Below, piece by piece: positions 45,783 through 64,000 of a stretch of 64,000 nt of DNA (its first letter is position 1; the number at the start of each line of letters is the position of its first letter). Below the pieces are notes generated by a model. The model saw only the letters and a program-made list of their open reading frames with translations. It was not told the DNA's origin and did not search any database. The position numbers were made by a program, and so were the translations under genes. The DNA lies in NCBI RefSeq assembly GCF_014204865.1, contig NZ_JACHMG010000001.1, positions 2,108,001 to 2,172,000 of the forward strand, written 5' to 3'. Source of the DNA: Amycolatopsis jiangsuensis (GTDB lineage: Bacteria; Actinomycetota; Actinomycetes; Mycobacteriales; Pseudonocardiaceae).

Positions 45783-45949
45783 ACGTCCAGTGAACCGGAC
45801 GCGACATCGGAATTCCAGCCCGCGTGCGCCACAGCGAGTTGAGTCACTCGAACGACGGTTGTTCTCACTTCCGCAGAAGTGGACAACTCGCTCCATTTGG
45901 AGTGTTAACGTCGATGACAGTGATCATCGGAGCACATTCGGGAGATGTC

Positions 45950-48221: not shown

Positions 48222-51200
48222 TCAACTTGGTCGAGGCGAATTCGACACAGGCCCCAAGGCCTCGGCGAGGCCGGCGAGAGTGGGATTCTTGAAGACCAGG
48301 GCCGGCGGAACCCGGCGCCCGAGTCGTTCGCCGAGCCGGCTCGCGACCGTGGCGATGGTCAACGAGCTGCCGCCGACGTCGAAGAAGCCGTCCTCCGGCC
48401 CGAAGTCGTCGCCGAGCCCCAGGCACTCCCGCCACACTTCGGCGACGAGGAGCTGGATTTTGGTTGCGGGCCGGCGGGTGGCCGGGGGAAGGGCGGCCAC
48501 CGAGCGCGGGGCGGGCAATGCCTCCCGGTCGACCTTGCCGTTCGGGGTCAAGGGGATCTCGCCGATCACGGTGTAACTCTGCGGCAGCATGTAAGGCGGT
48601 AGTTTCGCCGCCACATGAGCGCGCAGTTCCGCCGCTTCCGGAGCGGGCCGGTCAGTGTGCTCGGGGATCACGTAGGCCGCCAGATGATCCGCGCCGGAAC
48701 CGGTGCCGGCCATGGCGACGACGCATTCGGCCACGGCGGGGTGACTCTGCAGCGCGGACTCGATCTCGCCGAGCTCGATGCGGAAGCCGCGCACCTTGAC
48801 CTGGTGGTCGTTGCGACCGAGGAAGACCAGGTTGCCATCGGGTAGCAGCCGAACCACGTCGCCCGTGGCATACATCCGGGCGTCGGGCTCCGCGGCGTAC
48901 GGGTCGGGCAGGTATGCCGCCGCTGTGCGGGCCGGCCGGCCGAGGTAGCCACGGCCGACCGCGCTGCCGCCGACGTACAGCAGGCCGCGACAGCCAGGGG
49001 CCACCGGGCGTAACCGCGGGTCCAGGACGTAGAGGAGCGCGTTGTCGGTCGCCCGGCCGAACGGGACGCTCGGGAGATGACTGTGCCGATCGAGCAGCTC
49101 TTCCGTGATCGGACAGAATGCCGAGGTGATGGTAGCTTCGGTGGGCCCGTACTCGTTGTAGACCTGGCATCCCGGCGCGGTGGCGGACAGGACGCGGCGG
49201 GCCACGTCGTGTGGCACGGCTTCGGCACCAGTGAACAGCAGACGTACGGAAGCGAGTCGCGCGGCCGGATCCGTACCGGACTCCAGCAAGACCCGCATTT
49301 GCGAGGGCGTTGCGTTGAGCGTCGTGATGCCGCGCTCGGCGACCTGCCGCAGGAACTCCTCGGGGTCGTAGGCCGCGGTGGGGCTCGCGAAGTGCAGTTC
49401 GGCGCCGGACACCAGGCACTGGAAGATCTCCCAGACCGAGTTGTCGAACGCTGTCGAGTGGTTGAGCAGGGCCCGGTCCCGCCCGGTCAGTTGGCACAAC
49501 CGCTGGTTCCACTCCAAGAACCCCGTGATGTTGGCGTGGGTGATCATGACACCCTTGGGATTGCCGGTGGAGCCCGATGTGTAGATCACGTAGGCGAGGT
49601 GGTGAGGTTGTGCCTCTTCGAGCGGCCCGGGATCTTTGCCAGGCTCCTGATCCACCTCCACGAGGCACACGTCGTCGCTGAACAGAGCCGATGTGGGGTG
49701 CCCCGGATCGGCGACGACCAGGCGGACGCCCGAGTCGGCCAGCAGGTACCGCAGCCGGTCCGTCGGATAGCTTGGGTCGAGCGGCACGTAGGCGCCTCCC
49801 GCCCTCAGCACGCCCAGCAGGGCGACCACCAGCTCGACCGAGCGCTCGAGGCAAACAGCGACCAGGCTTTCGGGGCGGACCCCCTCGGCTCGCAGTTTCC
49901 GCGCCAAGGCCGAACTCCGTGCATCGGCCTCCGCGAAGGTCAGCGACCGACCGTCGCCAACGACGCAGATCGCGTCCGGCGTGCTCCGCACCTGATGGTC
50001 CCACAGGCGGACCAGGGTGCTGGGCCCTGGCACGGGTTCTGCCCGGTTGCCGGTGGTGAGAGCGCGCAGCTCGTCGGCCGTGACGATCTCCAGCTCGGAC
50101 AGCGGGGCGGCGACGTCGGACACCATCTGCTCGATGACCCGCAGGAAGTGCCGGCCGAGTCCGCGGACGAAGGCAGCGTCGAACAGGTCGGTGGCGTACT
50201 CGACGGAGATGCTGAGGTCACCGGTCCCGGCAGCGTGGTCCGTCACGTCGATGGCGAGGTCGAAGCGGGCGGTGCCGAGCCGTCCCTCCAGCTCCTTGCG
50301 GTCGTACAGCTCGGTGAGGTGACCGGCCACCGGCTCCTCGTGCAGAGCGAACAGCACCTGGAACAACGGGTTGCGGCTCAGGTCGCGTTCCGGGCTCAAC
50401 TCAGCCACCAGCTTCTCGAAAGGCAGCTCTTGGTGCGCGTATGCCTGCCGCGCAACCTCGCGGACCCGGCCCAGCAGCTCGCGCCAGGTCGGATCGCCGG
50501 AGAAGTCGGTGCGCAGGACGACGGTGTTCACGAAGTAGCCGACCACATCGTCCAGCTCGGGACGCGGCCGGCCGCCAATCAGCGTGCCGACGGCGACGTC
50601 GGTCTCGTCGGCGTAGCGACCGAGCAGCACCTGCAACGGAGCCAGCAGGCCCATGAACAACGTGATGCCTTCGGCACGGCACAGCCGCCTGAGCCGGCGA
50701 GTCAAGTCGATCGGGACACGCAGTAGTTCGCGGCGGCCACGATGGCTCGCGGCGGGCGGCCGGGGACGGCTGGTCGGCAGCTCCAGGACAGGCATCCCCG
50801 ACAACCGGGCGCGCCAGTGACCTGACAGCCGCTCCAACTCGGCACCGGTGAGCCGCTCACGCTGCCAAGCCGCGTAGTCGGCGTACGTCACAGGCAGCGG
50901 CGCCGGGATGGGGCGGTGGCCGTCGGCGAGGCCCGCGTAGTACTCGCCAAGCTCCCGGACCATGAGGTCGATCGACGCGCCGTCGCAGGCCAGGTGATGC
51001 ATCGTCAGCAAGACCACGTCACGGCTCGGAGCACACAGCACGTCCGCGCGCAGCAGCGGTGGGCGGTCGAGCGCGAACGGGGCACGGACAAGCCGGGTGA
51101 TCAGCGCGTCCAGCTCCTCCTCTGCCACCTCGATGCGGCGCAGCGGCACCGAGGCCGGCTCGCGCGGTTCGGGACGGCCCCGGCCGTCGTCGGAGACGAA

Positions 51201-53165
51201 AGCCGTGCGCAGCGCGGGGTGCCGTCGCACCAGAGCGGACAGGCATTCCTGCAGCAGCGCCGGATCAACACGCCCGCCGGGTACGCCCAAGGCCACCGGC
51301 AGGTGGTACGCGGGTACCGAGTCGTTCAGCTGCTCGAAGAACCAGATCCGCTCCTGGCCGAAGGACAGTTCGGCAGTCGTTGCCGCGGGGATCGGCCGGT
51401 CGGCCGAGGGGGCCGCGCCGTCCAGCGACGCGGCGAGCGCGGCCGGGGTCGGATGAGCGAAGACCGACTGGGTGTCGACCGGCACGCCGAGCTGCGCGCG
51501 CAGCCGGGCCACGACCCGGACCGCGGTGAGCGACTGGCCGCCCAGTCCGAAGAAGTCGTCATACGGCGCTACGTCGTCAAGCCCGAGGACTTCGGCCCAC
51601 ACGCGGCACACGGCCGCGGTGCGCGACGGCAGCGGCTCATCGCCGGGCGCCGGCCCGCTCGCTCGGACCGGGCCGTGCGGGATTCGCCGGGCGGCTTCCC
51701 GGTCGGCCTTGCCCGCCGGGGTGCGAGGCAAGGCCTCGAGCACGGCGTAGCCCTGGGCCACCATGTGCGCGGGAAGTCGCCGGGCCAGGTGCTCACGGAC
51801 CTGGCGCGGCAGGTCCGCTGCCGCATTCCGTGCGCCGGGGGCGGGCACGAGGTACGCCACCAGCTGGTCGCCCCCGGCTGCCTCGTGGTCGACGACCACC
51901 ACCGCGTCCGCGACGAAGGGGTGGCTGCGCGCAGCGGCCTCGATCTCGCCGAGCTCGATGCGGACGCCGCGTACCTTGACCTGGTCGTCGTTGCGTCCCA
52001 GCAGTTCCAGGGTGCCGTCGGCGGACCACCGGGCGAGGTCTCCGGTCCGGTACAGGCGTCCCGGAGTATCCCCGAACGGGTCGGGTACGAACCGGTCCGC
52101 GGTCAGTGCGGGCCGGTTGAGGTATCCGCGTGCCACGCCTGGGCCGCCGATCCACAGCTCGCCGACGAATCCTGGACCGGCTTCTCGCCCATTCTCGTCC
52201 ACGACGTGCAGGCGGGTGTTGGACAGGGCCGTGCCGACCGTGACGCGGTCGGCGACGGCGATGCGGGCGGCGGTAGCCCACACCGTCGCCTCAGTCGGCC
52301 CGTACAGGTTCCACAGGGTGCCGCCGGTCGCGAGCAGGTCGCCGGCCAGCCGCGAGTCGAGCGGCTCACCACCCGAGAGCAGCACTCGGCCGTGCCCGTC
52401 GGTCCAGCCGGACGCCAGCAGCATCCGCCAGCTGGTGGGAGTCGCCTGCACGACGCTCACCCCCGCCTCGGCGATGGTGGCGGCCAGCAGCTCCGGGTCG
52501 GTGTTGGCGGCGCGCGGGGCCATCACCACCGTCGTCCCTCGGGTCAGCGGCAGGAACAGCTCCAGAATCGAGATGTCGAACGACAGCGGGGTCAGCGCGA
52601 GGACCCGGTCGCCCGGCTCCAGGCCCGGGCGCTCGGCCGCACTCCGCAGGAACGAGGCGACCGCCGCGTGGTCGACGGCGACGCCCTTGGGTACGCCCGT
52701 CGAACCGGAGGTGTAGATGACGTAGGCCAGGTGGGACGGGTGTACTGCCTGCCCGACGGGAACCGACGGTTCCGCGGGGAAGTCCTCGGCGGACAGGACT
52801 TCGGCCACGCCGGACGCCAGAGCCTGCGTGCGCCGGTGCGCGTCGCACAGCGTCAGCCCGGTCCCCGAGTCGGAAGTCATGTACCGCAGCCGGTCGGCTG
52901 GGTAGCCGGGGTCGAGGGGCAGGTACGCGGCGCCCGATTTCAGGATGCCGAGCAAGGCCACGACCAGCTCCACCGAGCGATCGAGGCAAACCCCGACCAG
53001 GTCCTCCGGCCCCACGCCACGGATCCGCAGCTCGGCGGCGAGTGCCGTGGCCCGGCGGTCCACTTCGGCATAGGTGGCGTGGCGACCTCCTGCGACGACG
53101 GCGACCGCGTCGGGTGCTGCGGCTGCCTGCTGTTCCCACAGCGCGACGAGGGTGGTCGGCGTCAT
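48222..53165 (-). CDS. non-ribosomal peptide synthetase, A-T-C-A-T
   Basis: From ATG at 53165 the protein has 1647 residues. Domains in order: A1 (about 10-500, core YTSGSTGVPKG at 151-161), T1 (LGGQSL, Ser545), C (about 590-1010, HHLACDG at 723-729 with an intact active His), A2 (about 1045-1530, YTSGSTGNPKG near 1195), and T2 (VGGSSL near 1600). There is no C domain at the start and no thioesterase at the end. By eye, the A1 code reads D-I-L-Q-L-G-L-V-W-K, the glycine type. A2 reads about D-N-W-N-F-G-E-I-T-K, which I cannot assign; diaminopropionate is a candidate from context. MbtH, a free thioesterase and sbnAB lie just upstream in the same direction. Confidence 0.93.
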   Translation of the reverse strand: MTPTTLVALWEQQAAAAPDAVAVVAGGRHATYAEVDRRATALAAELRIRGVGPEDLVGVCLDRSVELVVALLGILKSGAAYLPLDPGYPADRLRYMTSDSGTGLTLCDAHRRTQALASGVAEVLSAEDFPAEPSVPVGQAVHPSHLAYVIYTSGSTGVPKGVAVDHAAVASFLRSAAERPGLEPGDRVLALTPLSFDISILELFLPLTRGTTVVMAPRAANTDPELLAATIAEAGVSVVQATPTSWRMLLASGWTDGHGRVLLSGGEPLDSRLAGDLLATGGTLWNLYGPTEATVWATAARIAVADRVTVGTALSNTRLHVVDENGREAGPGFVGELWIGGPGVARGYLNRPALTADRFVPDPFGDTPGRLYRTGDLARWSADGTLELLGRNDDQVKVRGVRIELGEIEAAARSHPFVADAVVVVDHEAAGGDQLVAYLVPAPGARNAAADLPRQVREHLARRLPAHMVAQGYAVLEALPRTPAGKADREAARRIPHGPVRASGPAPGDEPLPSRTAAVCRVWAEVLGLDDVAPYDDFFGLGGQSLTAVRVVARLRAQLGVPVDTQSVFAHPTPAALAASLDGAAPSADRPIPAATTAELSFGQERIWFFEQLNDSVPAYHLPVALGVPGGRVDPALLQECLSALVRRHPALRTAFVSDDGRGRPEPREPASVPLRRIEVAEEELDALITRLVRAPFALDRPPLLRADVLCAPSRDVVLLTMHHLACDGASIDLMVRELGEYYAGLADGHRPIPAPLPVTYADYAAWQRERLTGAELERLSGHWRARLSGMPVLELPTSRPRPPAASHRGRRELLRVPIDLTRRLRRLCRAEGITLFMGLLAPLQVLLGRYADETDVAVGTLIGGRPRPELDDVVGYFVNTVVLRTDFSGDPTWRELLGRVREVARQAYAHQELPFEKLVAELSPERDLSRNPLFQVLFALHEEPVAGHLTELYDRKELEGRLGTARFDLAIDVTDHAAGTGDLSISVEYATDLFDAAFVRGLGRHFLRVIEQMVSDVAAPLSELEIVTADELRALTTGNRAEPVPGPSTLVRLWDHQVRSTPDAICVVGDGRSLTFAEADARSSALARKLRAEGVRPESLVAVCLERSVELVVALLGVLRAGGAYVPLDPSYPTDRLRYLLADSGVRLVVADPGHPTSALFSDDVCLVEVDQEPGKDPGPLEEAQPHHLAYVIYTSGSTGNPKGVMITHANITGFLEWNQRLCQLTGRDRALLNHSTAFDNSVWEIFQCLVSGAELHFASPTAAYDPEEFLRQVAERGITTLNATPSQMRVLLESGTDPAARLASVRLLFTGAEAVPHDVARRVLSATAPGCQVYNEYGPTEATITSAFCPITEELLDRHSHLPSVPFGRATDNALLYVLDPRLRPVAPGCRGLLYVGGSAVGRGYLGRPARTAAAYLPDPYAAEPDARMYATGDVVRLLPDGNLVFLGRNDHQVKVRGFRIELGEIESALQSHPAVAECVVAMAGTGSGADHLAAYVIPEHTDRPAPEAAELRAHVAAKLPPYMLPQSYTVIGEIPLTPNGKVDREALPAPRSVAALPPATRRPATKIQLLVAEVWRECLGLGDDFGPEDGFFDVGGSSLTIATVASRLGERLGRRVPPALVFKNPTLAGLAEALGPVSNSPRPS

Positions 53166-53178
53166 GGACGATCCTTTC

Positions 53179-53916
53179 TCAGCCTTGTGCGGACAACGCG
53201 CGGACGATCGTCTCGGCGAGCTCTCGTTCCGCGCCGCGCACATACAGATGGGGCGCACCCGGGAACAGGTGCACCGAGAAGTCGCTCGAGGTGTGCCGGC
53301 GCCAGCCGACGAGCTCCGGCTCGCCGACGCTGTCGTCGGCCGAGCCGGCCAGAACCGTCACAGCGCACGGCAACGGGGCCTCAACGCGGTACGGGTAGGT
53401 CTCGCACAATGTCAGGTCCGCGCGCAGCAGCGGCAGCAGCAGCTCTTTCAGCTCGGCGTCCACGCCGTCGAATTCGGCGGTGGCGAGCAGCTCGTCATCC
53501 GGCAGCGTGTGCCGCGAATCGCGGTCCGGCAGGTCGGGGGCGCGCATGCCCGACAGGAAGAGACGCTCCGGCAGGCGTGTGCCCAGCGCACGCAGCCGCC
53601 GGGCCGTCTCGAAGGCGATCAGGGAACCCATGCTGTGTCCGAAAAAGGCGTACGGCAGGTCCGTGTGGTCCGCGACGAGCGGCGCGAGCGCGGCCACGGC
53701 CTCGTCCATGGACGTCAGGGCTGATTCGGCGAACCGGCTCTCCCTTCCGGGCAGCTGGACCGTGCAGACTTCGACGGTGTCCGGCAGGTGGGGCGCGAGC
53801 CGGTAGGCGGACGCACCGGCCCCGGCGTGCGGGAAGACGAAAAGGCGCCGCCGCGCGGTGCGTTCACGGCTACCGAGCCCGCGCAGCCAGGCGGCCGCGG
53901 GGCCGGCGGCCGTCAT
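53179..53916 (-). CDS. type II thioesterase
   Basis: The 245-residue protein has the alpha/beta-hydrolase layout of external NRPS thioesterases: FVFPHAGAGASAYR, VQLPGRESRF, the nucleophile GHSMG (93-97, Ser95), and a C-terminal GAPHLYV with the His. Type II enzymes clear wrong acyl groups from T domains. Because the NRPS has no built-in release domain, this one could also release the product. ATG at 53916 overlaps the mbtH stop by 4 bp, and the NRPS starts 13 bp after its stop. Confidence 0.9.
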   Translation of the reverse strand: MTAAGPAAAWLRGLGSRERTARRRLFVFPHAGAGASAYRLAPHLPDTVEVCTVQLPGRESRFAESALTSMDEAVAALAPLVADHTDLPYAFFGHSMGSLIAFETARRLRALGTRLPERLFLSGMRAPDLPDRDSRHTLPDDELLATAEFDGVDAELKELLLPLLRADLTLCETYPYRVEAPLPCAVTVLAGSADDSVGEPELVGWRRHTSSDFSVHLFPGAPHLYVRGAERELAETIVRALSAQG

Positions 53917-54110
53917 CGTGACGTCCGTACAGACCGCGGGGTCAAGTCGGTCCACACCTGTTCGATGTGGTCCAGGCACTCCTGGCGGGTCCCCCGGGCG
54001 CCGGTGGCGGTCCAGCCGGCGGGCAGAGCGCGGTCGGCGAACCAAACGGAGTACTGCTCCTCGTGGTTCACCACGACGACGTACCGGTCTTCGACGGGTG
54101 ATGAGCTCAT
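53913..54110 (-). CDS. mbtH: MbtH-family NRPS accessory protein
   Basis: The 65-residue protein has the MbtH pattern: VVVNHEEQYSVWF, PAGWTATG and the C-terminal CLDHIEQVWTDLTP with its conserved Trp and Asp. MbtH proteins bind adenylation domains and are often needed for their folding or activity. ATG at 54110 was chosen; the longer frame to 54263 is an SbnB shadow. Its stop overlaps the thioesterase start by 4 bp. Confidence 0.93.
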   Translation of the reverse strand: MSSSPVEDRYVVVVNHEEQYSVWFADRALPAGWTATGARGTRQECLDHIEQVWTDLTPRSVRTSR

Positions 54111-54115
54111 CTGCG

Positions 54116-55135
54116 TCAGGCCTCCGCCCCGATGAAGAAATCGCCTTCGCGACGGCCGCGGCCCGCGGCGACGATCCGGTCGTGCACCCACTTGCCGACG
54201 GCGAGGTCGAGTACGCCCAGCCCGAACGGCGAGAAGATCGCCGGGCGTCCGGGGTCCCGGCACAACCGCTCGCGCAACAGGTCGCCGAGAGTGCCGTCGA
54301 CGAAGTCCCGGTTGCCGGTGCGCTGTTCGGTCAGGTGCAGCGAGGTGCGCTCACGTACGGCGTGGTCCACGTCGTCGGTGAAGTTCTGCGCGGCGAGTAT
54401 CACCTCGGGTGCGAGGTCGCGCAGGGAGAGGTGCAGGACCACCGGGTTGTGCGCCAGCAGCCGGGGGTCGTGGAGGTGCGGCTCACCGGCCACGGTGGTC
54501 AGCAGCACGAGATCGCAGCCGGTGAACGCGTCCTCCACCCGGTCGGCGAGCACGATCTCGGCCTCGGTGTGCCCGGCGATCATGGCGCCGAAGCGGCTCG
54601 CCACCGCCGGTTCGAGGTCGAAGAGCCGGAACCCGCCGATCTCCCAGCCGAGATCGCGCAGGAACCGCCACACGTGCCGGGCGATCAGGCCGGTGCCCAC
54701 GATGCCGACCTGCCGGGCCCGGCGCCCACCGAGCAGCGTTTGCGCGCCGAGAACCGCGGACGCCGCGGTCCGGGTCGCCGAGACGATCGAGGATTCCATG
54801 CAGGCGAACGGGTAGCCGGTGACGCAGTCGTTGAGGATCAGGGTGGCCGAGGCACGGGGGAGACCGTGCCGCGTGTTGTCCGGGAAGCTGGCGATCCACT
54901 TGTTGCCGGCGACCTCGAACTCGCCGCCGAGGTAAGCGGGCAGGGAGATGATGCGCGACCGGTCCTGGTGCGGGAAGCGCAGGAACGAACTGTGCGGGTT
55001 CGAGCTCTGCCCGGCATCGTGCGCGAGGTAGGCGGCACGGACGACCTCGATCAGCTCCGGGCGGTGATGGTCGGTCTCGGCGGCGATGTCGCCCGCGGCG
55101 ATCACCGTCATGAGCGGTGGGGCCAAGGTGGACAT
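54116..55135 (-). CDS. sbnB: SbnB-like dehydrogenase for L-2,3-diaminopropionate
   Basis: From ATG at 55135 the 339-residue protein belongs to the ornithine-cyclodeaminase/mu-crystallin family. It has GNKWIASFPDN, the SbnB-like N-terminal block LPRASATLILND, and a Rossmann GIVGTGLIARHVWRFL in the middle. SbnB oxidises N-(1-amino-1-carboxyethyl)glutamate, made by SbnA, to release L-2,3-diaminopropionate and 2-oxoglutarate. It sits directly beside the SbnA-like gene (14 bp) and 5 bp before mbtH. Together they give a strong prediction that the peptide contains L-Dap. Confidence 0.88.
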   Translation of the reverse strand: MSTLAPPLMTVIAAGDIAAETDHHRPELIEVVRAAYLAHDAGQSSNPHSSFLRFPHQDRSRIISLPAYLGGEFEVAGNKWIASFPDNTRHGLPRASATLILNDCVTGYPFACMESSIVSATRTAASAVLGAQTLLGGRRARQVGIVGTGLIARHVWRFLRDLGWEIGGFRLFDLEPAVASRFGAMIAGHTEAEIVLADRVEDAFTGCDLVLLTTVAGEPHLHDPRLLAHNPVVLHLSLRDLAPEVILAAQNFTDDVDHAVRERTSLHLTEQRTGNRDFVDGTLGDLLRERLCRDPGRPAIFSPFGLGVLDLAVGKWVHDRIVAAGRGRREGDFFIGAEA

Positions 55136-55149
55136 GGGTTGGCTCTCCT

Positions 55150-56166
55150 TCAGTTGACGGCCAGTACTTCGACGCCGGCGGTCTGTGCTGCTTCGGCGCG
55201 CAACTGCTGAACCCAGGTGGGGTCGTAGACCGTCCCGGCGTAGGCTTGGCCGCGATCGGCGGCGAGGAACGCGACCCGCGGGCGGTGGACGCCGGGACGG
55301 CTGCGGGCGAAGTAGTCCTGGACGGCGGAATAGGCACTGCCCGTCGAACCGCCCGCGTACAAGCCGTACTTGGCGGCCATCGCGGCGCAGGCCTCGACGG
55401 TGTGCACTTCGGAGACGATCTGGACCTCGTCGATCAGCGCCTGGTCGCACAGCGGTGGCTTGATGCTGGACCCGATGCCGGGGATCCGGCGCTTCTTCGG
55501 CGGGCCGCCGAAGATCACCGAGCCTTCGGTGTCGACGGCGACCACCACACAGTCCGGGTAGGCCCCCTTGATCCGGCGGGAGAGCCCGGCGATCGTTCCA
55601 CCCGTGCCCACGCCGACGAACAGGTAGTCCAGCGGACCGGCCTGCGCGATCAATTCGGCAGCCGTGAAACGGTAATGCGCGTCACTGGCATCCGAATTGG
55701 CGTACTGGTTCGGCCAATAGGCAACTTCCAGTTCGGCCAGCAGATCTTGCACACGCGACAACCGCGTCTTCAGATAGCCACCGGCCGCGTCAGCCGCGGC
55801 GACCTTTTCCACGCGTCCGCACAAGAGCCGAAGCTGGGCCTCGGTGGACTCGTTGCAGTTCGGATCGATGACCGGGATGAACCGGATCCCGAGCATTCGG
55901 CAGTAGTAGGCCATGGCTAGCGCGAAGTTTCCGGACGAGGACTCGACCACCGTCGTTTCGCGGGTTATTTCCCCGCGGCCGATCGCCTGTTCCAGAATCC
56001 ACATCGCCGATCGGTCCTTGCTGCTTCCGCTCGGATTGCAGAATTCCAGCTTGACGAAGATTTCGCATTTCTCGTCCGCCAAGGCGATCAGTGGGGTTTC
56101 CGTCAGGCCCGAGCGGATCTGCCTTGCCCGTTCGACCAGGAATTGCTCAGCACGCTCATGGAGCAT
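55150..56166 (-). CDS. sbnA: SbnA-like PLP-dependent ligase for L-2,3-diaminopropionate
   Basis: The 338-residue protein is in the cysteine-synthase family. PLP Lys50 lies in NPSGSSKDRSA, the substrate loop is ESSSGN (75-80), and the phosphate-binding loop is VGTGGTIAG. SbnA-type enzymes join O-phospho-L-serine and glutamate instead of making cysteine. The pairing with an SbnB-like gene supports this over cysteine or cystathionine synthesis. ATG at 56166 begins MLHERAEQFL. The gene is preceded by a 333-bp region with at most one small gene. Confidence 0.88.
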   Translation of the reverse strand: MLHERAEQFLVERARQIRSGLTETPLIALADEKCEIFVKLEFCNPSGSSKDRSAMWILEQAIGRGEITRETTVVESSSGNFALAMAYYCRMLGIRFIPVIDPNCNESTEAQLRLLCGRVEKVAAADAAGGYLKTRLSRVQDLLAELEVAYWPNQYANSDASDAHYRFTAAELIAQAGPLDYLFVGVGTGGTIAGLSRRIKGAYPDCVVVAVDTEGSVIFGGPPKKRRIPGIGSSIKPPLCDQALIDEVQIVSEVHTVEACAAMAAKYGLYAGGSTGSAYSAVQDYFARSRPGVHRPRVAFLAADRGQAYAGTVYDPTWVQQLRAEAAQTAGVEVLAVN

Positions 56167-56200
56167 AGAACGAGTTTGACACGGAATGGGCCGAGGCGAC

Positions 56201-56437
56201 TCAACCGGGACTCAAGTACGCATTGCCACCGGCGTCACCTTCGACGCCGACGCCACCGGACGCGCCTCGGCGCAGGGAGCCGGCGAAGACAAACCGGCTG
56301 CCTGCTCCGAAGTACACGGCCTCGATCCAGGCCAGGGCAGCGCTCGCGGTGGCCTTCGCGGACGGTTCTTCGGCCGCGTTGGCGCTGATTGCGCGCGACT
56401 GCGCGATGACGTTTGAGACCGAACCGCGGCTCGGCAT
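56201..56437 (-). CDS. possible small protein, unidentified
   Basis: A 78-residue frame begins MPSRGSVSNVIAQ and has GC-rich third codon positions in the direction of the cluster. It fits between the 2OG oxygenase (stop 56500) and sbnA (start 56166). No domain is recognised and the opposite strand is also open, so it may be noise. If real, it would be a small cluster-specific protein. Otherwise the 56167-56499 region is non-coding. Confidence 0.28.
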   Translation of the reverse strand: MPSRGSVSNVIAQSRAISANAAEEPSAKATASAALAWIEAVYFGAGSRFVFAGSLRRGASGGVGVEGDAGGNAYLSPG

Positions 56438-56499
56438 GCTTCCGTGCCAAGCGAAACGCGCGCCGCCGGTGGTTGCTCTCGCTGCCGGCCCGGTCGGAA

Positions 56500-57336
56500 T
56501 CAGGTCCAGCTCACGACCGTCTCAGAATCGGTGAACCCCATGATGAAGGACACCGTGGTGCGGTTGCCGGAATTGGCGCCCACCGCGTGGACGAACGCAC
56601 CGTTGAAGGCGTAGACGTCACCCTCTCGAATGTCCACACGCAACTCCTCGAACTCCGCCAGGTCTTCGGCCCGGTAAGGCAGCCCGGTCAGCTCGATGTC
56701 GAGCGCGCGCCGGGTCGCGTCGTCGGGACGGATGTTCCAGATCACCAGCCGCCCGCCGGCGGTGTGTTCGGTGCACATGTTCACCGCGCAGATCTGGTGA
56801 TCCAGAACCCGCTGGATTTCGAAACCGCGCTGCCGCGGGTCCTTGCACTGCGCTTCGTCCTCGTGCGGGTCGAGCGAGAAATCGCCTTCCTTGTCCCACG
56901 CGCGGATCAGCGCGGCGCACGCCGGGCGGCCGTTCATCTCCGCCACCCGCAGCGACGCGCCCTCCTTGCCGAGAACCTCGCCGACGCCCTCACGGAACAA
57001 GTGCCATGGCGAATCGGGGGCGTCGATCACGTCGCGGACGTGCTCGGCGACCGCGGCCGACTCGTCGAGGTAGGTGCCGGCGTCCTTGTTCCAGTGGTAG
57101 GCGCCGACGTAGTGCGATGGCTCGCCCTCCCGGTGCTGTCGTGCCGGGCTGGCCCAGAACCGCTCGGTCAGATCCTTGCGCGCCGCCGCCGGGATGACAT
57201 CCCTGAAGATCACCCCCAGCCTGCGTCCGTGAAGAACGTCCAACACGAGCTCGTAGTCGAGTTCGTCGCGCTCCTCGAACCGGAAGAATCCCGGATCGGC
57301 TTGCTGTCCGCTCAGTCGTGCCTTGCTCTGCTGCAT
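56500..57336 (-). CDS. 2-oxoglutarate/Fe(II)-dependent oxygenase
   Basis: The 278-residue protein has an iron triad His158-x-Asp160 in PHEDEAQ, a distal His250 in NGAFVHAVGAN, and Arg259 nearby for 2-oxoglutarate. The Asp in HxD argues for hydroxylation or epoxidation rather than SyrB2-type chlorination, where it is Ala or Gly. The layout recalls tailoring oxygenases of small peptide pathways such as DdaC of dapdiamide, but that link is inference. Its place between the ATP-grasp gene and sbnA supports action on the peptide or its building blocks. Confidence 0.8.
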   Translation of the reverse strand: MQQSKARLSGQQADPGFFRFEERDELDYELVLDVLHGRRLGVIFRDVIPAAARKDLTERFWASPARQHREGEPSHYVGAYHWNKDAGTYLDESAAVAEHVRDVIDAPDSPWHLFREGVGEVLGKEGASLRVAEMNGRPACAALIRAWDKEGDFSLDPHEDEAQCKDPRQRGFEIQRVLDHQICAVNMCTEHTAGGRLVIWNIRPDDATRRALDIELTGLPYRAEDLAEFEELRVDIREGDVYAFNGAFVHAVGANSGNRTTVSFIMGFTDSETVVSWT

Positions 57337-57471
57337 CTTTTCTCTCCTTCTCGCACGCGTACACCGCTGCTCTCACAAAGCAGGGCTGGAAAGGCAGTGC
57401 TTACTGGCCGAAGTGGGCGCGAAGCTCCGTGCACGACACGATCCGCCGGTCTGCTGCGGCCTGGCGCCGGC

Positions 57472-58740
57472 TCACCCCTGGTCCTCGTACTCGACGTACA
57501 GTGTGCTGGCGAGGTGTTCGCGGTACGCCTCGGCTTCGGCGTCGGACCCGTGGCGGGAAATCACGATCACCGGGTATCCCGCAAAGTCCGGGTAGGGCGG
57601 CAGCAGCGTGCCAGGGCCCGCGTTCTGCACCACGTACTCCACCCGTGGGTCGGCCCGCACCGAGTCCAGTCCGTGCACTCGCTTGACTCGCCCGCCGCTT
57701 CCGACCGGTACCTGGTAGGCCGCCACGTGACCGGCCGGGACCGGCTTCTCACTCCAGTACAGCGGTTGCCTGCCGAGGTGAATGCGCAGCGCGTCGGCGG
57801 CCAGGTCGATCCCGCTTCCGACGTGCGCGAAGTGCGCCATGTATCCCCCGCCACCGATGCGCGCGCCCATCTCCAGCAGCACCGGGCGCACGCCGCCGAC
57901 CAGCCGCAGTTCGGTGTGCGTGGTGCCTTCTGTGACATCGAAGGCGTGGTGCGCGGCGATCACCTCCGCCTCGGTCGCGGCGAGTACTTCGGCGGGCAGC
58001 TGGGCAGGAGCTCGCAAGGTGGTCTCCTGGAAGTATGGCCCCGTCAGCTCGCCCTTCCAGCTGATGGCGCAGACCCGGACCTCCCCCCGATGGACAAGGG
58101 ATTCGGCGGAAATCTCCGGCCCGTCCAGGTACTCTTCGACCACTACGCCGACCTGCGCGGCCAATCCGTCGTTTGCACCCCGGCGCGCATCGACAAGCGC
58201 CCAGGTGCCGGCCACGGCCTCTTCGAGACCGTCCTTGTCGTCCACTCGGACCACACCGAAGCTGGAGTGACCGCTGACCGGCTTCACCACCACGGGGAAC
58301 CGCAGGCTGAGCGCGTCGGCCCACCTGTCCGGGGCCTCCACGACCACGAAGCCGGGTGTGCCAAGACCAGCCTCCAGCAGGTGACGGCGCATGCTTCGCT
58401 TGTCGCGCACCAGCGCCGCCGTTTTCTCGGTGAGCCCGACGAGGCCCAGTTCCCGGGCAGCGCGCGCCACGAACGGCACCGCCTGCTCGTTGGCCGCCAT
58501 GATCCCGCCGAACGGCTCCTGCCGGTAGCGTCCAGCGAGCTGGGACAGCGCGCCTTCCGGATCACCTTCTATGTCCAGCGGCAGCAGTTCGACCACGGCA
58601 GGGGCGCGCCCTGCGGACTCCTTCGTGTCGTCCCCCCTGGGAACGAGGATCAAGTCGATACCGGCCCGCTCGGCGGCCTCGAACAGCCAGGGCAGCGTCG
58701 ACAGCTGACCGACGAGGACGAGTTTCGGGCGCTGGGACAT
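57472..58740 (-). CDS. ATP-grasp ligase
   Basis: From ATG at 58740, preceded by GGAGAAA, the protein has 422 residues. It has an N-terminal preATP domain, then ATP-binding VVKPVSGHSSFG (151-162, Lys153), VVVEEYLDGPE (199-209), and the metal-binding LLEMGARIGGGG (288-299). This is the layout of L-amino-acid ligases such as DdaF of dapdiamide and BacD of bacilysin. It probably forms an amide bond outside the NRPS, joining an amino acid or peptide to a carboxylate. It can be carboxylate-specific in ways not visible here. Confidence 0.87.
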   Translation of the reverse strand: MSQRPKLVLVGQLSTLPWLFEAAERAGIDLILVPRGDDTKESAGRAPAVVELLPLDIEGDPEGALSQLAGRYRQEPFGGIMAANEQAVPFVARAARELGLVGLTEKTAALVRDKRSMRRHLLEAGLGTPGFVVVEAPDRWADALSLRFPVVVKPVSGHSSFGVVRVDDKDGLEEAVAGTWALVDARRGANDGLAAQVGVVVEEYLDGPEISAESLVHRGEVRVCAISWKGELTGPYFQETTLRAPAQLPAEVLAATEAEVIAAHHAFDVTEGTTHTELRLVGGVRPVLLEMGARIGGGGYMAHFAHVGSGIDLAADALRIHLGRQPLYWSEKPVPAGHVAAYQVPVGSGGRVKRVHGLDSVRADPRVEYVVQNAGPGTLLPPYPDFAGYPVIVISRHGSDAEAEAYREHLASTLYVEYEDQG

Positions 58741-58793
58741 AACGGTTTCTCCAAGAATCGGCGATGCGGGCAAGTCCGGGAAAGGTGGTGCCA

Positions 58794-60626
58794 TCAGGCC
58801 GAGCGCCGGATCGGCACGCCGCTCGGCGGCGTCGCGAACGGGCGTACGCCAGGCTCCCATTCATAAGCGAACCGGCTGTCCGCATCGGGGAGCCGCGCGC
58901 GCACCAGGTAGCGCTCTCCCAGCTCCTCCAGCAGGTCCTCGGCGTCCTGGTCGCTGATCCGCAGGGACGCCGCGACCGACGCCGGCGTGACCTGATCGGG
59001 AACTCCGCGGCCGAGCAGCTCGTACGCCAGGGCCAGCGATTCGGCGGGCAGTGTCGCGAGCGTCCGCTCGAATGCGGCGCGTACGCCCAACGGGTCGCCG
59101 TCCGCGCCCTCCGCGGCGAGTAGCCAAGCCGCGGCTTGCTGGGCCGTCCAGTGTGGACGCCGGCGCAACTGCGCCGCGACGGCCAGGAGCGCGCCCGGCA
59201 GCCCCCGGCACAAGCGAACCAGCCGGCGCAGTCCTTCCTGGTCCGTCGCGATGCGGTGCCCGGGCAGGCAAGACGCCAGCAGTTGCAGGCAGTCGGGAAA
59301 GGGCAGTCCGGCCAGTTCGAGGTGGAACGCCGACGAGGACACGAACAGCCGCCGGCGGCTGCCGATCACCACCCCGCAGCCCGTGCCCGATGGCAGTAGC
59401 GGCGTCAGGTCACCCTCGTCGCACACATCGTCGAGTACTACCAGGACGCGGAGATCGGCAGTCCAGCTGCGGAACAACAGACTCAGATCGGCCGAGCCCA
59501 GCCGCAGCTGCTCCCCTGTCGCACCCAACCCGCGCAGGAACGAACGAAGGATCTCGGAGGACCGCACCCGCCGGCCCGCGTCGTCTCGCAGACGCGCGTA
59601 AAGCTGCCCATCCGGATACCAACCGCTCACCTGGTGCGCGGCGTGCAGGCACAGCTCGGTCTTCCCGGTGCTCGGGGCGCCCTCCACGATCACGACCGGC
59701 CGGCCGGTTCGCTCCCGGCCGGTCAACGCCGCAGTGAGGCGCGTCAGCTGGCCGGCGCGTCCGGTCAGACGCTCGCGCGGGGCAGGCGGATGGCAGGGCA
59801 CGCGGATCGCAGCGGGCCCGGCCGTTTTCCGCTCGCCGGGACGCAGCAGTGCCTCATCCGAGGTGAGCACGGCCTTGTGCAGGGCCTGAAGCCGGGCCGA
59901 GGGGTCGAGACCCAGCTCCGCGGCGATCCGCTCGTGAGCCCGGCGGTAGACTTCCAGCGCTTCCGCCCGCCGGTCGATGCGATAAAGCGCGATCATCAAG
60001 TTGCCCTGGGCCCGCTCGTCTGTCGGTTCCCGCCGGGCCATGGAGGTGAGTTCGCCGAGCACCTCGTGGTGCCGGCCGAGGTGCAGGTCCGATTCGATCC
60101 GCAAGTGGTGTGCGCTGGTACGCAACCCCTGCAGTCTGGCCGCCTCAGCCGCCAACCTGGGTCCTTTGCGCACGTCCACCAGTACGTCGTCCCGCCAGAG
60201 CCGCAGGGCCGCAGCAGCCGTGTCACGGGCTCGGGCGAAATCCTCGTCACGGAACTCCGCTCCGGCACGGGCGAGCAGCGGCTCGAACCGGAAGACGTCA
60301 ACGTGGTCCGCGGGCAGCGACAGCTGATAGCCACCGTCGACCGTGGCCAGCAGCACTTCGTCGGCCCGCACCGCGCCGGCGCTCCTCGGATTGCCGAGGG
60401 AAAACCGCTTCCGGAGCTGGTACACATACGTCTGCACCGCGGTGTGCGCACTGGCGGTCGGATCGTCGTTCCACAGCTCGTCCATGAGTTGCTCGAGGGA
60501 CACCACCCGGCCCGCGTTGAGCACGAGCATCGCCAAGGTCTGGCGTACTTTCTGGGCGGCAGGCGCCAGGTTGGCGCGGTGGTCGTCCCGGTGGGCCTCG
60601 AGCGGCCCGAGAAGGTTGATTCGCAT
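58794..60626 (-). CDS. SARP-family pathway regulator with NB-ARC domain
   Basis: The 610-residue protein starts MRINLLGPLEAHR and has the OmpR-like winged helix (LNAGRVVSLEQLMDELW) at about 10-100. It is followed by the bacterial transcriptional activation domain (about 110-260) and an NTPase region with Walker A GAPSTGKTE near 325 and Walker B LVVLDDVCDE. AfsR/DnrI-type SARPs activate antibiotic clusters by binding direct repeats near the -35. It has the first two modules and an ATPase but no TPR tail. It is the only pathway-specific regulator seen in the cluster. Confidence 0.92.
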   Translation of the reverse strand: MRINLLGPLEAHRDDHRANLAPAAQKVRQTLAMLVLNAGRVVSLEQLMDELWNDDPTASAHTAVQTYVYQLRKRFSLGNPRSAGAVRADEVLLATVDGGYQLSLPADHVDVFRFEPLLARAGAEFRDEDFARARDTAAAALRLWRDDVLVDVRKGPRLAAEAARLQGLRTSAHHLRIESDLHLGRHHEVLGELTSMARREPTDERAQGNLMIALYRIDRRAEALEVYRRAHERIAAELGLDPSARLQALHKAVLTSDEALLRPGERKTAGPAAIRVPCHPPAPRERLTGRAGQLTRLTAALTGRERTGRPVVIVEGAPSTGKTELCLHAAHQVSGWYPDGQLYARLRDDAGRRVRSSEILRSFLRGLGATGEQLRLGSADLSLLFRSWTADLRVLVVLDDVCDEGDLTPLLPSGTGCGVVIGSRRRLFVSSSAFHLELAGLPFPDCLQLLASCLPGHRIATDQEGLRRLVRLCRGLPGALLAVAAQLRRRPHWTAQQAAAWLLAAEGADGDPLGVRAAFERTLATLPAESLALAYELLGRGVPDQVTPASVAASLRISDQDAEDLLEELGERYLVRARLPDADSRFAYEWEPGVRPFATPPSGVPIRRSA

Positions 60627-60741
60627 GCAATTCGCCTTGCCTCGTGTTCGTCCGGTTCCGTTCGACCGGCCGGCGACGCGCCGCGCGGCCGCCTGGACCG
60701 GGCGGTGAGAACGCGCCCGGCACAGACGGGTCCGGAATTTC

Positions 60742-61758
60742 TCACCCCGTTTTCGCCGCGGCCAGGTGCGGGTGATGCCGGGCGACGTTTTCGGGGAACG
60801 AGCGGATCACGCCTTTCATGACGTTGTCGCCGTAGAGGGCGAACAACGGGTTGCCGGCAACATCGGTGACTCCACCGGCACTCTCGACGTAGGGGCCGGG
60901 CAGTGGCGGCATCGTGGCATCCAGGCGAGGGTTGTAGAAGAAGGGAATGGAGTAGCGGTTGACGCCCGTGCCGGGCCGGACCACCCGATGGAGCGTGGCG
61001 CGCACGTACCCCCTTGTCGCTACCTCCAGCAGCTCTCCCAGGTTGACCACGAACGCCCCCGGAATCACCGGCACGTCGATGAACCGGTCGTCCTCGACCG
61101 CGACTTGAAGGCCACCATTGCTGTCCTGGACGAGCAGGGTGAGCAGTCCGAGATCGTTGTGGGCACCGGTTCCCTGCCCGGAGCCGTCGTCCTCGCCGGT
61201 CTGCGTGGGACCCGGGTAGTGCAGGAGTTTGAGGTGGATCTGCGGGTCCGGATCGACCACACCGTCCAGGAAGTCCGCCGGTGCCTCGAGCGCCTCGAGC
61301 ATGAGCCGTAGCAAGCGGTGCGAAAGATCGGTCAGCCGGGCGATCCAGGACTCGATGGCCGGACGCAGTTCAGGCATCGCCGAAGGCCACTTGTTCGGCC
61401 CGACCAGGCACTGATAGGCGGGATCGCCGGGCTCGAAACTCCGCGCGGGCTGCTCCGGCCCGATGTCGAGCTGCCGGCGCTGGTCCGGAACACCCTTGGT
61501 GTGTTCGCGGCCGAGTTCGGAGTAGCCGCGGAACAGTGGCGAGTCGAGGATGTTCAGCGCGAGCCGATCGCCCTCCGGCAGGGCGAAGAAGCGGCGGCTC
61601 AGCTCGAGCATGTCTTCGCTGTCCTCGACACCGTGGCCGACGAGCTGGAAGAAGCCGATCTCATGGATGGCCGCGCGCAGCCGGTGCAGGAACTCCGCCT
61701 TGGATCCTGCCGAACCGGCGGCGTCGCGAAGGTCGAGCACGGGGAAGTCTTCGGTCAC
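60742..61758 (-). CDS. 2OG-Fe(II) oxygenase, isopenicillin-N-synthase-like
   Basis: From GTG at 61758 the protein has 338 residues. It has the DIOX_N domain (IGFFQLVGHGV), iron ligands His200-x-Asp202 in GAHNDLGLLTLL and His257 in ATLHRVV, and Arg268-x-Ser270 in NRYSIPFF that binds 2-oxoglutarate. Related proteins hydroxylate, epoxidise or close rings on small molecules. The start overlaps the queC stop by 4 bp, so it is coupled to the 7-deazaguanine enzyme and may act on that base or on the final conjugate. Confidence 0.9.
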   Translation of the reverse strand: MTEDFPVLDLRDAAGSAGSKAEFLHRLRAAIHEIGFFQLVGHGVEDSEDMLELSRRFFALPEGDRLALNILDSPLFRGYSELGREHTKGVPDQRRQLDIGPEQPARSFEPGDPAYQCLVGPNKWPSAMPELRPAIESWIARLTDLSHRLLRLMLEALEAPADFLDGVVDPDPQIHLKLLHYPGPTQTGEDDGSGQGTGAHNDLGLLTLLVQDSNGGLQVAVEDDRFIDVPVIPGAFVVNLGELLEVATRGYVRATLHRVVRPGTGVNRYSIPFFYNPRLDATMPPLPGPYVESAGGVTDVAGNPLFALYGDNVMKGVIRSFPENVARHHPHLAAAKTG

Positions 61759-62444
61759 AACAGCTCCTTCGATGCACTGGTCTGGTAGGCCGTAGGGTCG
61801 GTCACACCGGCACCTTGGAACGCTTCCTGCCGATCCCAGCAGGATGCGCACTCTCCGCAGTGCAGCGGGCCGCCGCGCATGCAGGTCCAGGTCTCGGTCC
61901 AGGGAACGCCGAGCCGCTCGCCGAGCGATACCACGTCACTCTTGCGCAGCCCAGCCAGTGGCGCGGTCAACGTCAGCTCGGGGTGCGCGTACCCGTGGGT
62001 CGCGACCTTCTCCATGGCAAGGAAAGCCTCGAGAAAGGCGACGTTGCTGTCGGGTGCGGCTTGCGGGTCGTCGATCACCCCGATGGCCACCGCGGTCGCC
62101 TCCTCGGCGACAGCGACCGCGAAGGCGACAGAAAGGAGAACGGCATTGCGGTTGGGTACGACGTTCGGGCTCTGCCCGGGTGATTCCGGCTTACGATTCG
62201 GCACCTCGACCGTCAGGTCGGTGAGTGAGGAGCCGTGCATGAGCATGCCGACCGAGCGCAGATCGACGATGTCGTGCGGCACCCCGAGCGTTCTCGCCGC
62301 CCTCGCGGCGAACTTGTGTTCCACCAGGTTGCGTTGCCCGTAGTCCACGGACAACAACCGAAGTGCGTGTCCTTGGGCTCGGAGGTGGTGCGCCATGGTG
62401 ACCGAGTCCAGGCCACCGGAAACAATTGCGACGGTTTTGCGCAT
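61755..62444 (-). CDS. queC: QueC, 7-cyano-7-deazaguanine (preQ0) synthase
   Basis: The 229-residue protein has the PP-loop SGGLDS (residues 9-14), LLSVDYGQRN, and four zinc Cys in TCMRGGPLHCGECASC near the C-terminus. QueC turns 7-carboxy-7-deazaguanine into the amide and then preQ0 with ATP and ammonia. With folE in the same operon this points to a 7-deazaguanine product. It is not next to the usual tRNA-queuosine genes; QueD and QueE are not in the window. ATG at 62444 was chosen; a longer frame lacks a ribosome site. Confidence 0.92.
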   Translation of the reverse strand: MRKTVAIVSGGLDSVTMAHHLRAQGHALRLLSVDYGQRNLVEHKFAARAARTLGVPHDIVDLRSVGMLMHGSSLTDLTVEVPNRKPESPGQSPNVVPNRNAVLLSVAFAVAVAEEATAVAIGVIDDPQAAPDSNVAFLEAFLAMEKVATHGYAHPELTLTAPLAGLRKSDVVSLGERLGVPWTETWTCMRGGPLHCGECASCWDRQEAFQGAGVTDPTAYQTSASKELL

Positions 62445-62547
62445 GTTCTGCCTTTCGGCGCATAGAAGTCGACGGGTCGGCCGGTGGGGCCAAAGCAGCC
62501 TTGCGGCTTGCACAGGAGCCGAAGCGTTGGCGACGCGTGGATCTCCG

Positions 62548-63534
62548 TCAGACCCCCGGTGTGGCCGGAACGCTCAGCCGCGTCGAACGGCGGCCCTTGC
62601 GGTAGGTGAGATCGACTTCGGGCCGTGGAGCGTCCAGCCTGATGGTGAGAGTTCGCTCCTCACTCCACCCGACCAAGCGGTACTCGTTTCCGCCAAGGGC
62701 CGCCAGCGGGAACGGGTGGCCATGGGGAGATCGGATGGCGAGCTCCGTACCGGTGTCGACGATGCTGAACTCCGCCAGGGGCTGCGGACCGTCGAGCGAC
62801 CCGAACACCTCGGTCTCCAGCAGGTGCGCCGGCGCCTCGAACGAACATCGCGCGCCTTCCCGCTCCGAGTCCGTGGTAGCGGCGGCGGCGGGCCGGTTGT
62901 AGAGCACTTCCGGGCCGTCGAAGTAGCCGGCCCAGTCCGCCGGGAACAGCTGCGCGAGAGCCGGAGTGACCAGCACGTCCACGACAAGATGGACGCGATG
63001 CTCGGTGCCGAGGTTCTGGATGTGGTGCTTGCGGCTGAAGTCGCCGAACCAGAACTCGCCGGGTTGCCAGCGGTGGACCTCTCCGTCGAGCTCCAGCGAT
63101 GCTTCCTCGTGGGTGATGACCGGCATGTGCAGCCGGGCCACCCCCCAGTCCGGGGCGAACTTGGCATCGTTGTGGGGATATCCGACGACTCCGGGTCCCA
63201 GATCCATGAACCTCGCCGCGTGGAGCGGCCCGGGAATCGACCGCAGGACCTCCTCCACGTAGGGCATGTGGTCCAGCCACTCGGTGTCGGCGAATTCCGC
63301 GCCGCCGGGGCCGCCCGCGTCGGTACGGGTCTTGTCACCCCCGGGGCTGCGCACCGGGAGGCAGCGCCAGTCCTGCGGCTCCTCCCACCTGGTCACCTGG
63401 CCGTTCGCGTACGCGCTCTGCTCATCCCACAGGTGGTCGCGCGCGGTCATGAGGTCTGCCAGCAGCCGGCCGGCGTCCAGTGTGGGGAGCAGACGGGCCG
63501 CTCCCGCCGGCGTCGAAGAATGGTTTTCGTTCAT
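62548..63534 (-). CDS. aspartyl/asparaginyl beta-hydroxylase-like oxygenase
   Basis: From ATG at 63534, preceded by GGAAAGGA, the protein has 328 residues. The Asp/Asn-hydroxylase double-stranded beta-helix is seen around residues 105-190. His121-x-Asp123 lies in YPHNDAKF, followed by RLHMPVIT, and the distal His (170 or 171) lies in RKHHIQN with Arg180. Related enzymes hydroxylate free or carrier-bound amino acids such as Asp or Pro. The extra 140 residues at the C-terminus are not assigned. It lies between folE and queC in the cluster. Confidence 0.82.
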   Translation of the reverse strand: MNENHSSTPAGAARLLPTLDAGRLLADLMTARDHLWDEQSAYANGQVTRWEEPQDWRCLPVRSPGGDKTRTDAGGPGGAEFADTEWLDHMPYVEEVLRSIPGPLHAARFMDLGPGVVGYPHNDAKFAPDWGVARLHMPVITHEEASLELDGEVHRWQPGEFWFGDFSRKHHIQNLGTEHRVHLVVDVLVTPALAQLFPADWAGYFDGPEVLYNRPAAAATTDSEREGARCSFEAPAHLLETEVFGSLDGPQPLAEFSIVDTGTELAIRSPHGHPFPLAALGGNEYRLVGWSEERTLTIRLDAPRPEVDLTYRKGRRSTRLSVPATPGV

Positions 63535-63584
63535 CGTCGTCCTTTCCCGCAGGCTGGATCGGAACGGTGATCCAGCCTGACTCG

Positions 63585-64000
63585 TCAGGCCCGGAGCAGG
63601 TCGAACAGCTCTCCCCGGAGCTTCGGATCCGTGCCGAAATCCCCGCGATACGCGGTGGAGGTCATCTGCGCCGCGGCTTTGACGCCCCGCATCGTCATGC
63701 AAAGGTGCTCGCCCTTCGCTATGACCGCGACGTCCGCGGTACCGCTCAGCGTGCTGATCTCCAGCGCGATTTGGTCCACGAGGCGCTCCTGGACTTGCAG
63801 CCGGTGCGCGCACTGATGGGCGACCCTGGCGAACTTGGACAGGCCGAGCAGTTTCTCCCCTGGACGATATGCGATCGTCACGGCGCATTTGAAGGGCAGC
63901 AGGTGGTGCTCACACAGTGACCAGACCTGGATATCCGAGACGACTACGAGCTGACTGGTGCCGATCGACTCGAAAAGCGTGTCCAGCGAACCCGGCTCAT
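63585..64000 (-). CDS. folE: GTP cyclohydrolase I, cut by the window edge
   Basis: The C-terminal 138 residues are present and read up to the edge at 64000 without a start. The zinc and active-site block VWSLCEHHLLPFKCAV, then GLSKFARVAHQCAHRLQVQERL and the zinc Cys in HLCMTMRGVK, are unmistakable. GTP cyclohydrolase I makes 7,8-dihydroneopterin triphosphate, the first step of both folate and 7-deazaguanine. The cluster setting beside queC favours the second use. Confidence 0.93.
   Translation of the reverse strand, partial: EPGSLDTLFESIGTSQLVVVSDIQVWSLCEHHLLPFKCAVTIAYRPGEKLLGLSKFARVAHQCAHRLQVQERLVDQIALEISTLSGTADVAVIAKGEHLCMTMRGVKAAAQMTSTAYRGDFGTDPKLRGELFDLLRA

Follow-up and report, generated by a model that had tools for sequence, protein, structure and literature searches.

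What would a bacterium make from a block of genes in which enzymes of 7-deazaguanine synthesis lie among those of a nonribosomal peptide synthetase (NRPS) line and of L-2,3-diaminopropionate (L-Dap, here Dap) supply? The question is raised by the right-hand part of a 64,000-nucleotide stretch of the Amycolatopsis jiangsuensis genome (8.05 Mb, 97% completeness), namely bases 2108001-2172000 of contig 1, which we call the window. We propose, with a probability of about 0.6, that this minus-strand block belongs to a dedicated, patchily distributed cluster for a 7-deazaguanine-peptide conjugate (7-deazaguanine-Gly-Dap).

Relatives of the cluster were sought with its aspartyl/asparaginyl hydroxylase-type (AspH-type) oxygenase as query. 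Among 5.8 billion proteins this gave 65 matches, 19 of which (P0002-P0020) were 75-84% identical over nearly their full length. Within the bacterial family, Pseudonocardiaceae, 35 of 390 genomes had a match, and an identity of at least 75% was reached only in the protein's own genome and in one other (G220, 79%). A scan of named genomes yielded 22 loci, eight with a protein at 75% identity or more (in Streptomyces kronopolitis, S. rhizoryzae, Streptomyces sp. NRRL S-337, Kutzneria buriramensis, S. filipinensis, S. iranensis, Streptomyces sp. NBC_00568 and S. olivochromogenes). Genes for QueC, QueD, QueE and FolE surround the AspH-type gene in all eight, vs. no match to the cluster QueC in any of the 14 lower-identity loci, within the flanking stretch covered. 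The gene set thus recurs in eight named genomes and is not confined to our own.

Six of these loci, from Streptomyces and Kutzneria, are complete; S. iranensis, with a contig break within SbnA, and S. olivochromogenes, whose NRPS block is on a separate short contig, were left out. The same 17 genes are found together in 6/6 of the complete loci: those for a methyltransferase, QueE, QueD, FolE, the AspH-type oxygenase, QueC, a DIOX_N-type oxygenase (DIOX), a SARP regulator, an L-amino acid ligase, a FemAB-like protein, a circularly permuted (CP) ATP-grasp protein, an MFS transporter, SbnA, SbnB, MbtH, a thioesterase and the NRPS. Module order varies among the six, while the gene set stays intact. 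On this basis the block is one cluster and no chance neighbourhood, uniting deazaguanine cassette, NRPS line and SbnA/SbnB, as an earlier note made from the sequence alone had claimed. Two further genes are less constant, an AfsR-type regulator being present in 5/6 and a HilA-like oxygenase full-length in 2/6 of the other complete loci. Protein searches with the L-amino acid ligase (43 relatives at 65% identity or more, P0067-P0109) and the CP ATP-grasp protein (40 at 70% or more, including the query's and the window's own, P0186-P0225) suggest a wider spread than the named loci.

Genes were called from open reading frames combined with Pfam and NCBIfam scans, some starts being placed from overlaps and alignments. 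All of the gene families first noted on the minus strand of the window were found:

48222..53165, minus strand: dimodular NRPS with adenylation (A), thiolation (T) and condensation (C) domains in the order A-T-C-A-T (Pfam; codes at anchor motifs; C motif HHLACDG)
53179..53916, minus strand: stand-alone thioesterase with a GHSMG motif (PF00975)
53913..54110, minus strand: MbtH-like protein of 65 aa (PF03621)
54116..55135, minus strand: SbnB, L-2,3-diaminopropionate biosynthesis (TIGR03944, 395.6 bits, above the cut-off of 326.9)
55150..56166, minus strand: SbnA, L-2,3-diaminopropionate biosynthesis (TIGR03945, 373.6 bits, above the cut-off of 349.95)
56500..57336, minus strand: HilA-like Fe(II)/2-oxoglutarate (2OG) oxygenase, accessory (NF041274, 102.7 bits, below the cut-off of 500)
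57472..58740, minus strand: ATP-grasp L-amino acid ligase (PF13535/PF18130/PF18603; start after the 422-aa relative P0066)
58794..60626, minus strand: SARP regulator with NB-ARC domain (PF03704)
60742..61758, minus strand: DIOX_N / 2OG-Fe(II) oxygenase (PF14226, PF03171; start placed from the overlap with the queC stop)
61755..62444, minus strand: QueC-like enzyme with a variant substrate motif (PF06508; start by alignment)
62548..63534, minus strand: AspH-type oxygenase (PF05118)
63585 to about 64175, crossing the window end at 64000, minus strand: FolE (PF01227)

The window edge at 64000 is not the end of the cluster, which runs on with queD, queE, a methyltransferase gene and an AfsR-type SARP gene. 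Of the genes that had been suggested as worth looking for there, queD, queE and a transporter, here of the MFS type, are present. In coordinates of the extended window, used for all positions above 64000, the continuation reads:

64213-64575: QueD (Pfam)
64613-65326: QueE (Pfam)
65340-66122: S-adenosylmethionine (SAM) methyltransferase (Pfam/NCBIfam scans)
66584-69499: AfsR-type SARP (Pfam/NCBIfam scans)
71038-75131: aldehyde dehydrogenase, second HilA-like oxygenase and MppQ/VioD-like aminotransferase, between cluster genes in our own genome
75590-77023: MFS transporter, after the intervening genes
77033-78469: CP ATP-grasp protein (weak Pfam match, below the curated cut-off)
78686-79834: FemAB-like protein (weak Pfam match, below the curated cut-off)

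Relatives of the CP ATP-grasp protein carry the names glutathionylspermidine synthase or circularly permuted ATP-grasp; for the FemAB-like protein, a relative of 41% identity passes the FemAB_like cut-off. The aldehyde dehydrogenase, second HilA-like oxygenase and aminotransferase were set aside as cluster parts because they had no separate match in the stretches of the other loci, where the overlap filter would mask a second HilA match falling on the place of the first. On the left, a P450 gene followed by one for an ApbA-family reductase (window 45824-48099, plus strand) adjoins the NRPS end; the P450, ApbA and MFS genes on that side had no separate match in the fetched stretches of the other loci.

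The peptide line reads most clearly at its start. The first A domain carries a glycine code, DILQLGLVWK, taken at anchor motifs by script and eye and identical at 8/10 positions to the published glycine signature DILQLGMIWK (PMC12283262). No condensation domain precedes module 1, so the amine of this glycine would be free. The second code is DNWNFGEITK, with V for I in the relatives and F at position 299 as read by eye; the string DNWN is absent from the main text of PMC12283262, whose tables lay outside that check. Both codes agree among eight NRPSs, the window's included, as far as the script read them (one first code in part), save for the I/V exchange. SbnA and SbnB both score above their NCBIfam equivalog cut-offs, which upholds their earlier assignment as L-Dap enzymes, and their genes directly adjoin those for MbtH, thioesterase and NRPS in the six loci.

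Some hints on tailoring come from relatives of the accessory enzymes. For the ATP-grasp ligase the best match is BL00235, an L-amino acid ligase (3vot, E 2e-68), and the nearest solved relatives of the AspH-type oxygenase are proline hydroxylases (E 3.1e-4 and 9.2e-4). Relatives of the latter (46-53% identity) lie beside SbnA/SbnB, without QueC, in 5/14 lower-identity loci (L046, L047, L049, L050 and L051), and the family search placed another with SbnA/SbnB in L062. Since these relatives accompany SbnA/SbnB but not QueC, the AspH-type oxygenase may act on the Dap part. In one such locus, L046 of an uncultured Streptomyces, SbnA-SbnB and the AspH-type protein are joined by asparagine synthetase, ATP-grasp and AllG-like proteins, with no match to the cluster QueC; loci of this type look like a Dap pathway of their own. 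Relatives of DIOX (42-56% identity) are common in Actinomycetes (62/394 genomes at 1e-70, our own included). In six of their loci no preQ0 gene was recognised by eye in the first 60 residues of the frames, no search being made, and no function for DIOX was taken from them.

How would the deazaguanine unit be made and joined? By Pfam the FolE-QueD-QueE-QueC route is complete, and the motifs of FolE (CEHH), QueD (CxxxHGH) and QueE (CxxxCxxC) are intact; FolE also passes one NCBIfam subfamily model. The earlier note had taken FolE and QueC as a route to preQ0. The cassette is indeed present, but QueC as a maker of preQ0 is doubtful, the equivalents of two tyrosines, Y131 and Y189 of the E. coli enzyme, having been lost.

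We aligned seven cluster QueCs with 37 others of the same bacterial family, 30 of which were the best Pfam matches. All seven cluster QueCs retain the SGGxDS Ser and Asp as well as residues equivalent to Y35, R99, D133 and K165 (E. coli numbering). In contrast, the Y131 equivalent is Ala in 7/7 (vs. Tyr in 33/37 others, the remaining four having T, S, C and F), the C134 equivalent is Ser in 7/7 (vs. Cys in 35/37) and the Y189 equivalent is Phe in five and Met in two (vs. Tyr in 34/37). The window QueC itself has Ala, Ser and Met, respectively. Two further QueCs, of L043 and L045, have Ala at the first position, Ala and Ser at the second and Met and Phe at the third, so that Ala together with Phe or Met replaces the tyrosine pair in 9/9 cluster QueCs examined. 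The four cysteines, counted by eye, are spaced C-x7-CxxCxxC instead of C-x8. Compared with canonical QueC as described for cluster 1 of PMC13329287, the protein has SGGxDS, the Y35, R99 and K165 equivalents and the zinc cysteines, and lacks the aromatic Y131 in YPDC and Y189 in the zinc region. The enzyme has also drifted: against a locus that we call huimycin-like from its gene content (L121), QueC is 42% identical vs. 62-64% for QueE, QueD and FolE, and against another cluster of the genus (L123) the figures are 50% and 60-63%.

In E. coli QueC, Y131A and Y189A abolish queuosine formation, while Y131F is partly active (PMC13329287). The related ligase Cap9 couples 7-carboxy-7-deazaguanine (CDG) to a glycine at the N terminus of a protein; there the deazaguanine is stacked by the tyrosine at the matching position, and an Asp recognises the Watson-Crick edge of the base. 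QatC has threonine at both places (PMC13279940). Since the ATP site and this Asp are kept, our data suggest that the cluster QueC still activates a deazaguanine carboxylate; the loss of both tyrosines makes a normal preQ0 synthase unlikely. As QueC lacks two residues essential to the E. coli enzyme, CDG, a carboxylate, may be the form in which the deazaguanine unit is incorporated, by way of an amide, rather than preQ0. We tentatively suggest, as one possible reading, that the enzyme is no longer a nitrile synthase and has become a small-molecule deazaguanylation ligase, which would adenylate CDG and cap the amine of glycine, the first residue of the NRPS chain; this free amine is the same type of acceptor as that of Cap9.

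An alternative that we consider unlikely is that QueC still makes preQ0, whose nitrile would react with the vicinal diamine of Dap, or with an amino acid in the manner of archaeosine, to give an amidine or imidazoline link between base and peptide. Nitriles add 1,2-diamines, archaeosine synthesis includes the addition of lysine to preQ0, and the kept ATP site and guanine-reading Asp of QueC speak for this reading. Against it, E. coli QueC is inactivated when Y131 is replaced by Ala (PMC13329287), none of the scanned genes was recognised as coding for an enzyme that adds to or reduces a nitrile, and QueF has no match in the genome.

The conjugate that we favour could then arise as follows. GTP would be converted to CDG by FolE, QueD and QueE, and Dap would be supplied by SbnA and SbnB. 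Aided by MbtH, the NRPS would load its first module with glycine and its second, most likely, with Dap, giving Gly-Dap. ATP-dependent activation of the deazaguanine carboxylate would allow its amide linkage to the peptide. The likeliest catalyst of this coupling is the altered QueC, acting on the free amine of glycine; failing that, it would be one of the two ATP-grasp ligases. The Dap part is probably hydroxylated by the AspH-type oxygenase, the methyltransferase and other oxygenases would tailor the product, and additional residues may be attached by the ATP-grasp and FemAB-like enzymes. Export would fall to the MFS protein and control to the two SARP-type regulators.

Several observations pull the other way. 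Since the second A-domain code gives no assignment, Dap is placed on the NRPS line by gene neighbourhood, and the two other ligases of the cluster could do the coupling. Three cassette proteins score below their NCBIfam equivalog cut-offs (QueD 85.8 vs. 89.25, QueE 96.3 vs. 206.1 and QueC 130.3 vs. 150.3 bits). Among solved structures, the best match of the cluster QueC is plain QueC (2pg3, 1.7e-14) and Cap9 comes second (9nto, 2.1e-13), ahead of B. subtilis QueC (3bl5, 8.1e-12); Cap9 retains the stacking tyrosine, so Ala is no Cap9 feature. The 37 comparison QueCs lean towards the canonical, 30 being best Pfam matches, and four of them also lack the tyrosine. The drift of QueC is visible only against L121 and L123, because all four proteins are 29-41% identical to those of a further cassette, L120. 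Another aromatic residue might stand in for Y131, with QueC still making preQ0, or the loss of tyrosine may merely reflect a larger or methylated base. A predicted structure of the cluster QueC, made with seven sequences, was too poor (mean predicted local distance difference test score, pLDDT, of 47) and was not used. Finally, the L123 cluster has a variant QueC, yet no glycine code is read from its A domain.

It is also conceivable, though we judge it improbable, that assembly and decoration of the base take place apart from the peptide, with no covalent link between the two, the cluster yielding two cooperating products. The methyltransferase gene adjoins queE, an arrangement comparable to huiC of the huimycin cluster, whose product is proposed by the authors to methylate the base (PMC7439116), and the rearrangement of modules among genomes also speaks for this reading. 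Yet the modules stay together in 6/6 loci, and none of the scanned genes was recognised as nucleoside-forming or as coding for a glycosyltransferase. Nor does the cluster methyltransferase have a tblastn match at 1e-4 in the huimycin-like L121, and the idea that it is the HuiC orthologue was dropped; at 1e-30 in the 390 family genomes, with up to six candidates scored per genome, it matched only our own and K. buriramensis.

That FolE and QueD merely supply pterins, FolE being common to folate and pterin synthesis, or that a housekeeping queuosine operon lies beside an NRPS cluster by chance, is highly improbable, given the presence of QueE and QueC, the conserved co-clustering, two further folE loci elsewhere and the lack of any match in our genome, of which about 3% may be missing, to tRNA-guanine transglycosylase (TGT, PF01702; vs. 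14/14 control genomes) or to QueF (vs. 8/14). The genome has two matches to the QueC model, that of the cluster being strong (2.4e-46) and the other falling below the matches listed. As a separate observation, another folE gene (C1:5752190-5753221; L007 1471-2532), downstream of an FtsH-like gene as judged by eye, is interrupted ahead of the zinc-ligand CEHH by an in-frame insert of about 160 aa that starts with Cys and ends with His-Asn. An Intein_splicing match scores below its cut-off, and the insert is likely a mini-intein in GTP cyclohydrolase.

If a deazaguanine-peptide conjugate is indeed the product, these hybrids would be a new chemical class, made by a cluster family common to several culturable Streptomyces, and QueC would have been recruited for amide ligation not in immunity alone but also in metabolism. 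Given the altered residue in QueC, an enzyme test could be sharp and cheap. The theme may be wider still. In the same genus, the L123/L127 locus (G115:C1:2087000-2123999) has a QueC-QueD-QueE-FolE cassette in a different cluster, followed by a methyltransferase-like protein (below Pfam cut-offs), a pyridoxal phosphate (PLP) decarboxylase, an aminotransferase, a DIOX 60% identical to ours, a DapD-like protein, an ATP-grasp ligase, an acyl-CoA dehydrogenase-A-T protein and a thioesterase; its QueC has Thr and Phe at the Y131 and Y189 equivalents, respectively. Deazaguanine synthesis and amino-acid ligation may thus be combined there too.

How does the cluster compare with those described? The earlier note knew of no characterised cluster with this gene set, and we likewise recognised none in the open-access literature that combines genes for 7-deazaguanine and for an NRPS or Dap, subscription papers and MIBiG being outside its scope; with that scope the product may already be known. 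Echiguanine A is not known to be a ribosylated nucleoside, and we know of no gene cluster for it; it is a 7-deazaguanine compound from Streptomyces, named in a figure legend of PMC6112128. The huimycin cluster of Kutzneria albida resembles ours in holding QueC, QueD, QueE, FolE and a SAM methyltransferase. It differs in that the portion of PMC7439116 drawn on here reports no NRPS, Dap genes or ATP-grasp, the base being linked to N-acetylglucosamine (GlcNAc) by a glycosyltransferase. The QueC of the huimycin-like L121, unlike that of our cluster, keeps the YPDC motif and the second tyrosine. In the toyocamycin and tubercidin clusters, homologues of FolE, QueD and QueE are similarly dedicated to a secondary metabolite, in this case nucleosides, with purine-salvage-type genes of which none was recognised in our cluster (PMC6112128, PMC12648386). 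No gene for base ribosylation or glycosyl transfer of the toyocamycin or huimycin type was found among the scanned genes.

On the peptide side, NjxA and NjxB of S. albulus are homologues of SbnA and SbnB. As proposed for our cluster, two enzymes supply L-Dap to a peptide synthetase in poly-Dap formation by S. albulus (PMC4668381), whereas our pair is partnered with a Gly-X dimodule and deazaguanine genes.

A parallel to the proposed coupling, that of Cap9, comes from phage defence. QatC is about 400 aa long and has lost YPDC and VPxRN, whereas VPxRN is kept in 7/7 cluster QueCs, which are about 229 aa long from the inferred start. The Cap9 motif H(x)4YxDCxxxF is absent from the cluster QueC, no CD-NTase was recognised among the scanned genes, and the words 'nonribosomal' and 'Streptomyces' do not occur in the main texts of PMC13329287 and PMC13279940. 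Cap9 itself, of type IV CBASS (cyclic oligonucleotide-based antiphage signalling system), acts on a protein substrate from within a defence operon, is shorter and keeps the stacking tyrosine. As in our proposal, it is a member of the QueC family that forms an amide between CDG and a glycine amine, known as the NDG modification (PMC11996544, PMC13279940). If the cluster QueC is indeed a ligase, it would be the biosynthetic counterpart of this protein modification, and its product, a nonribosomal peptide capped by 7-deazaguanine, a type not met in the literature covered.

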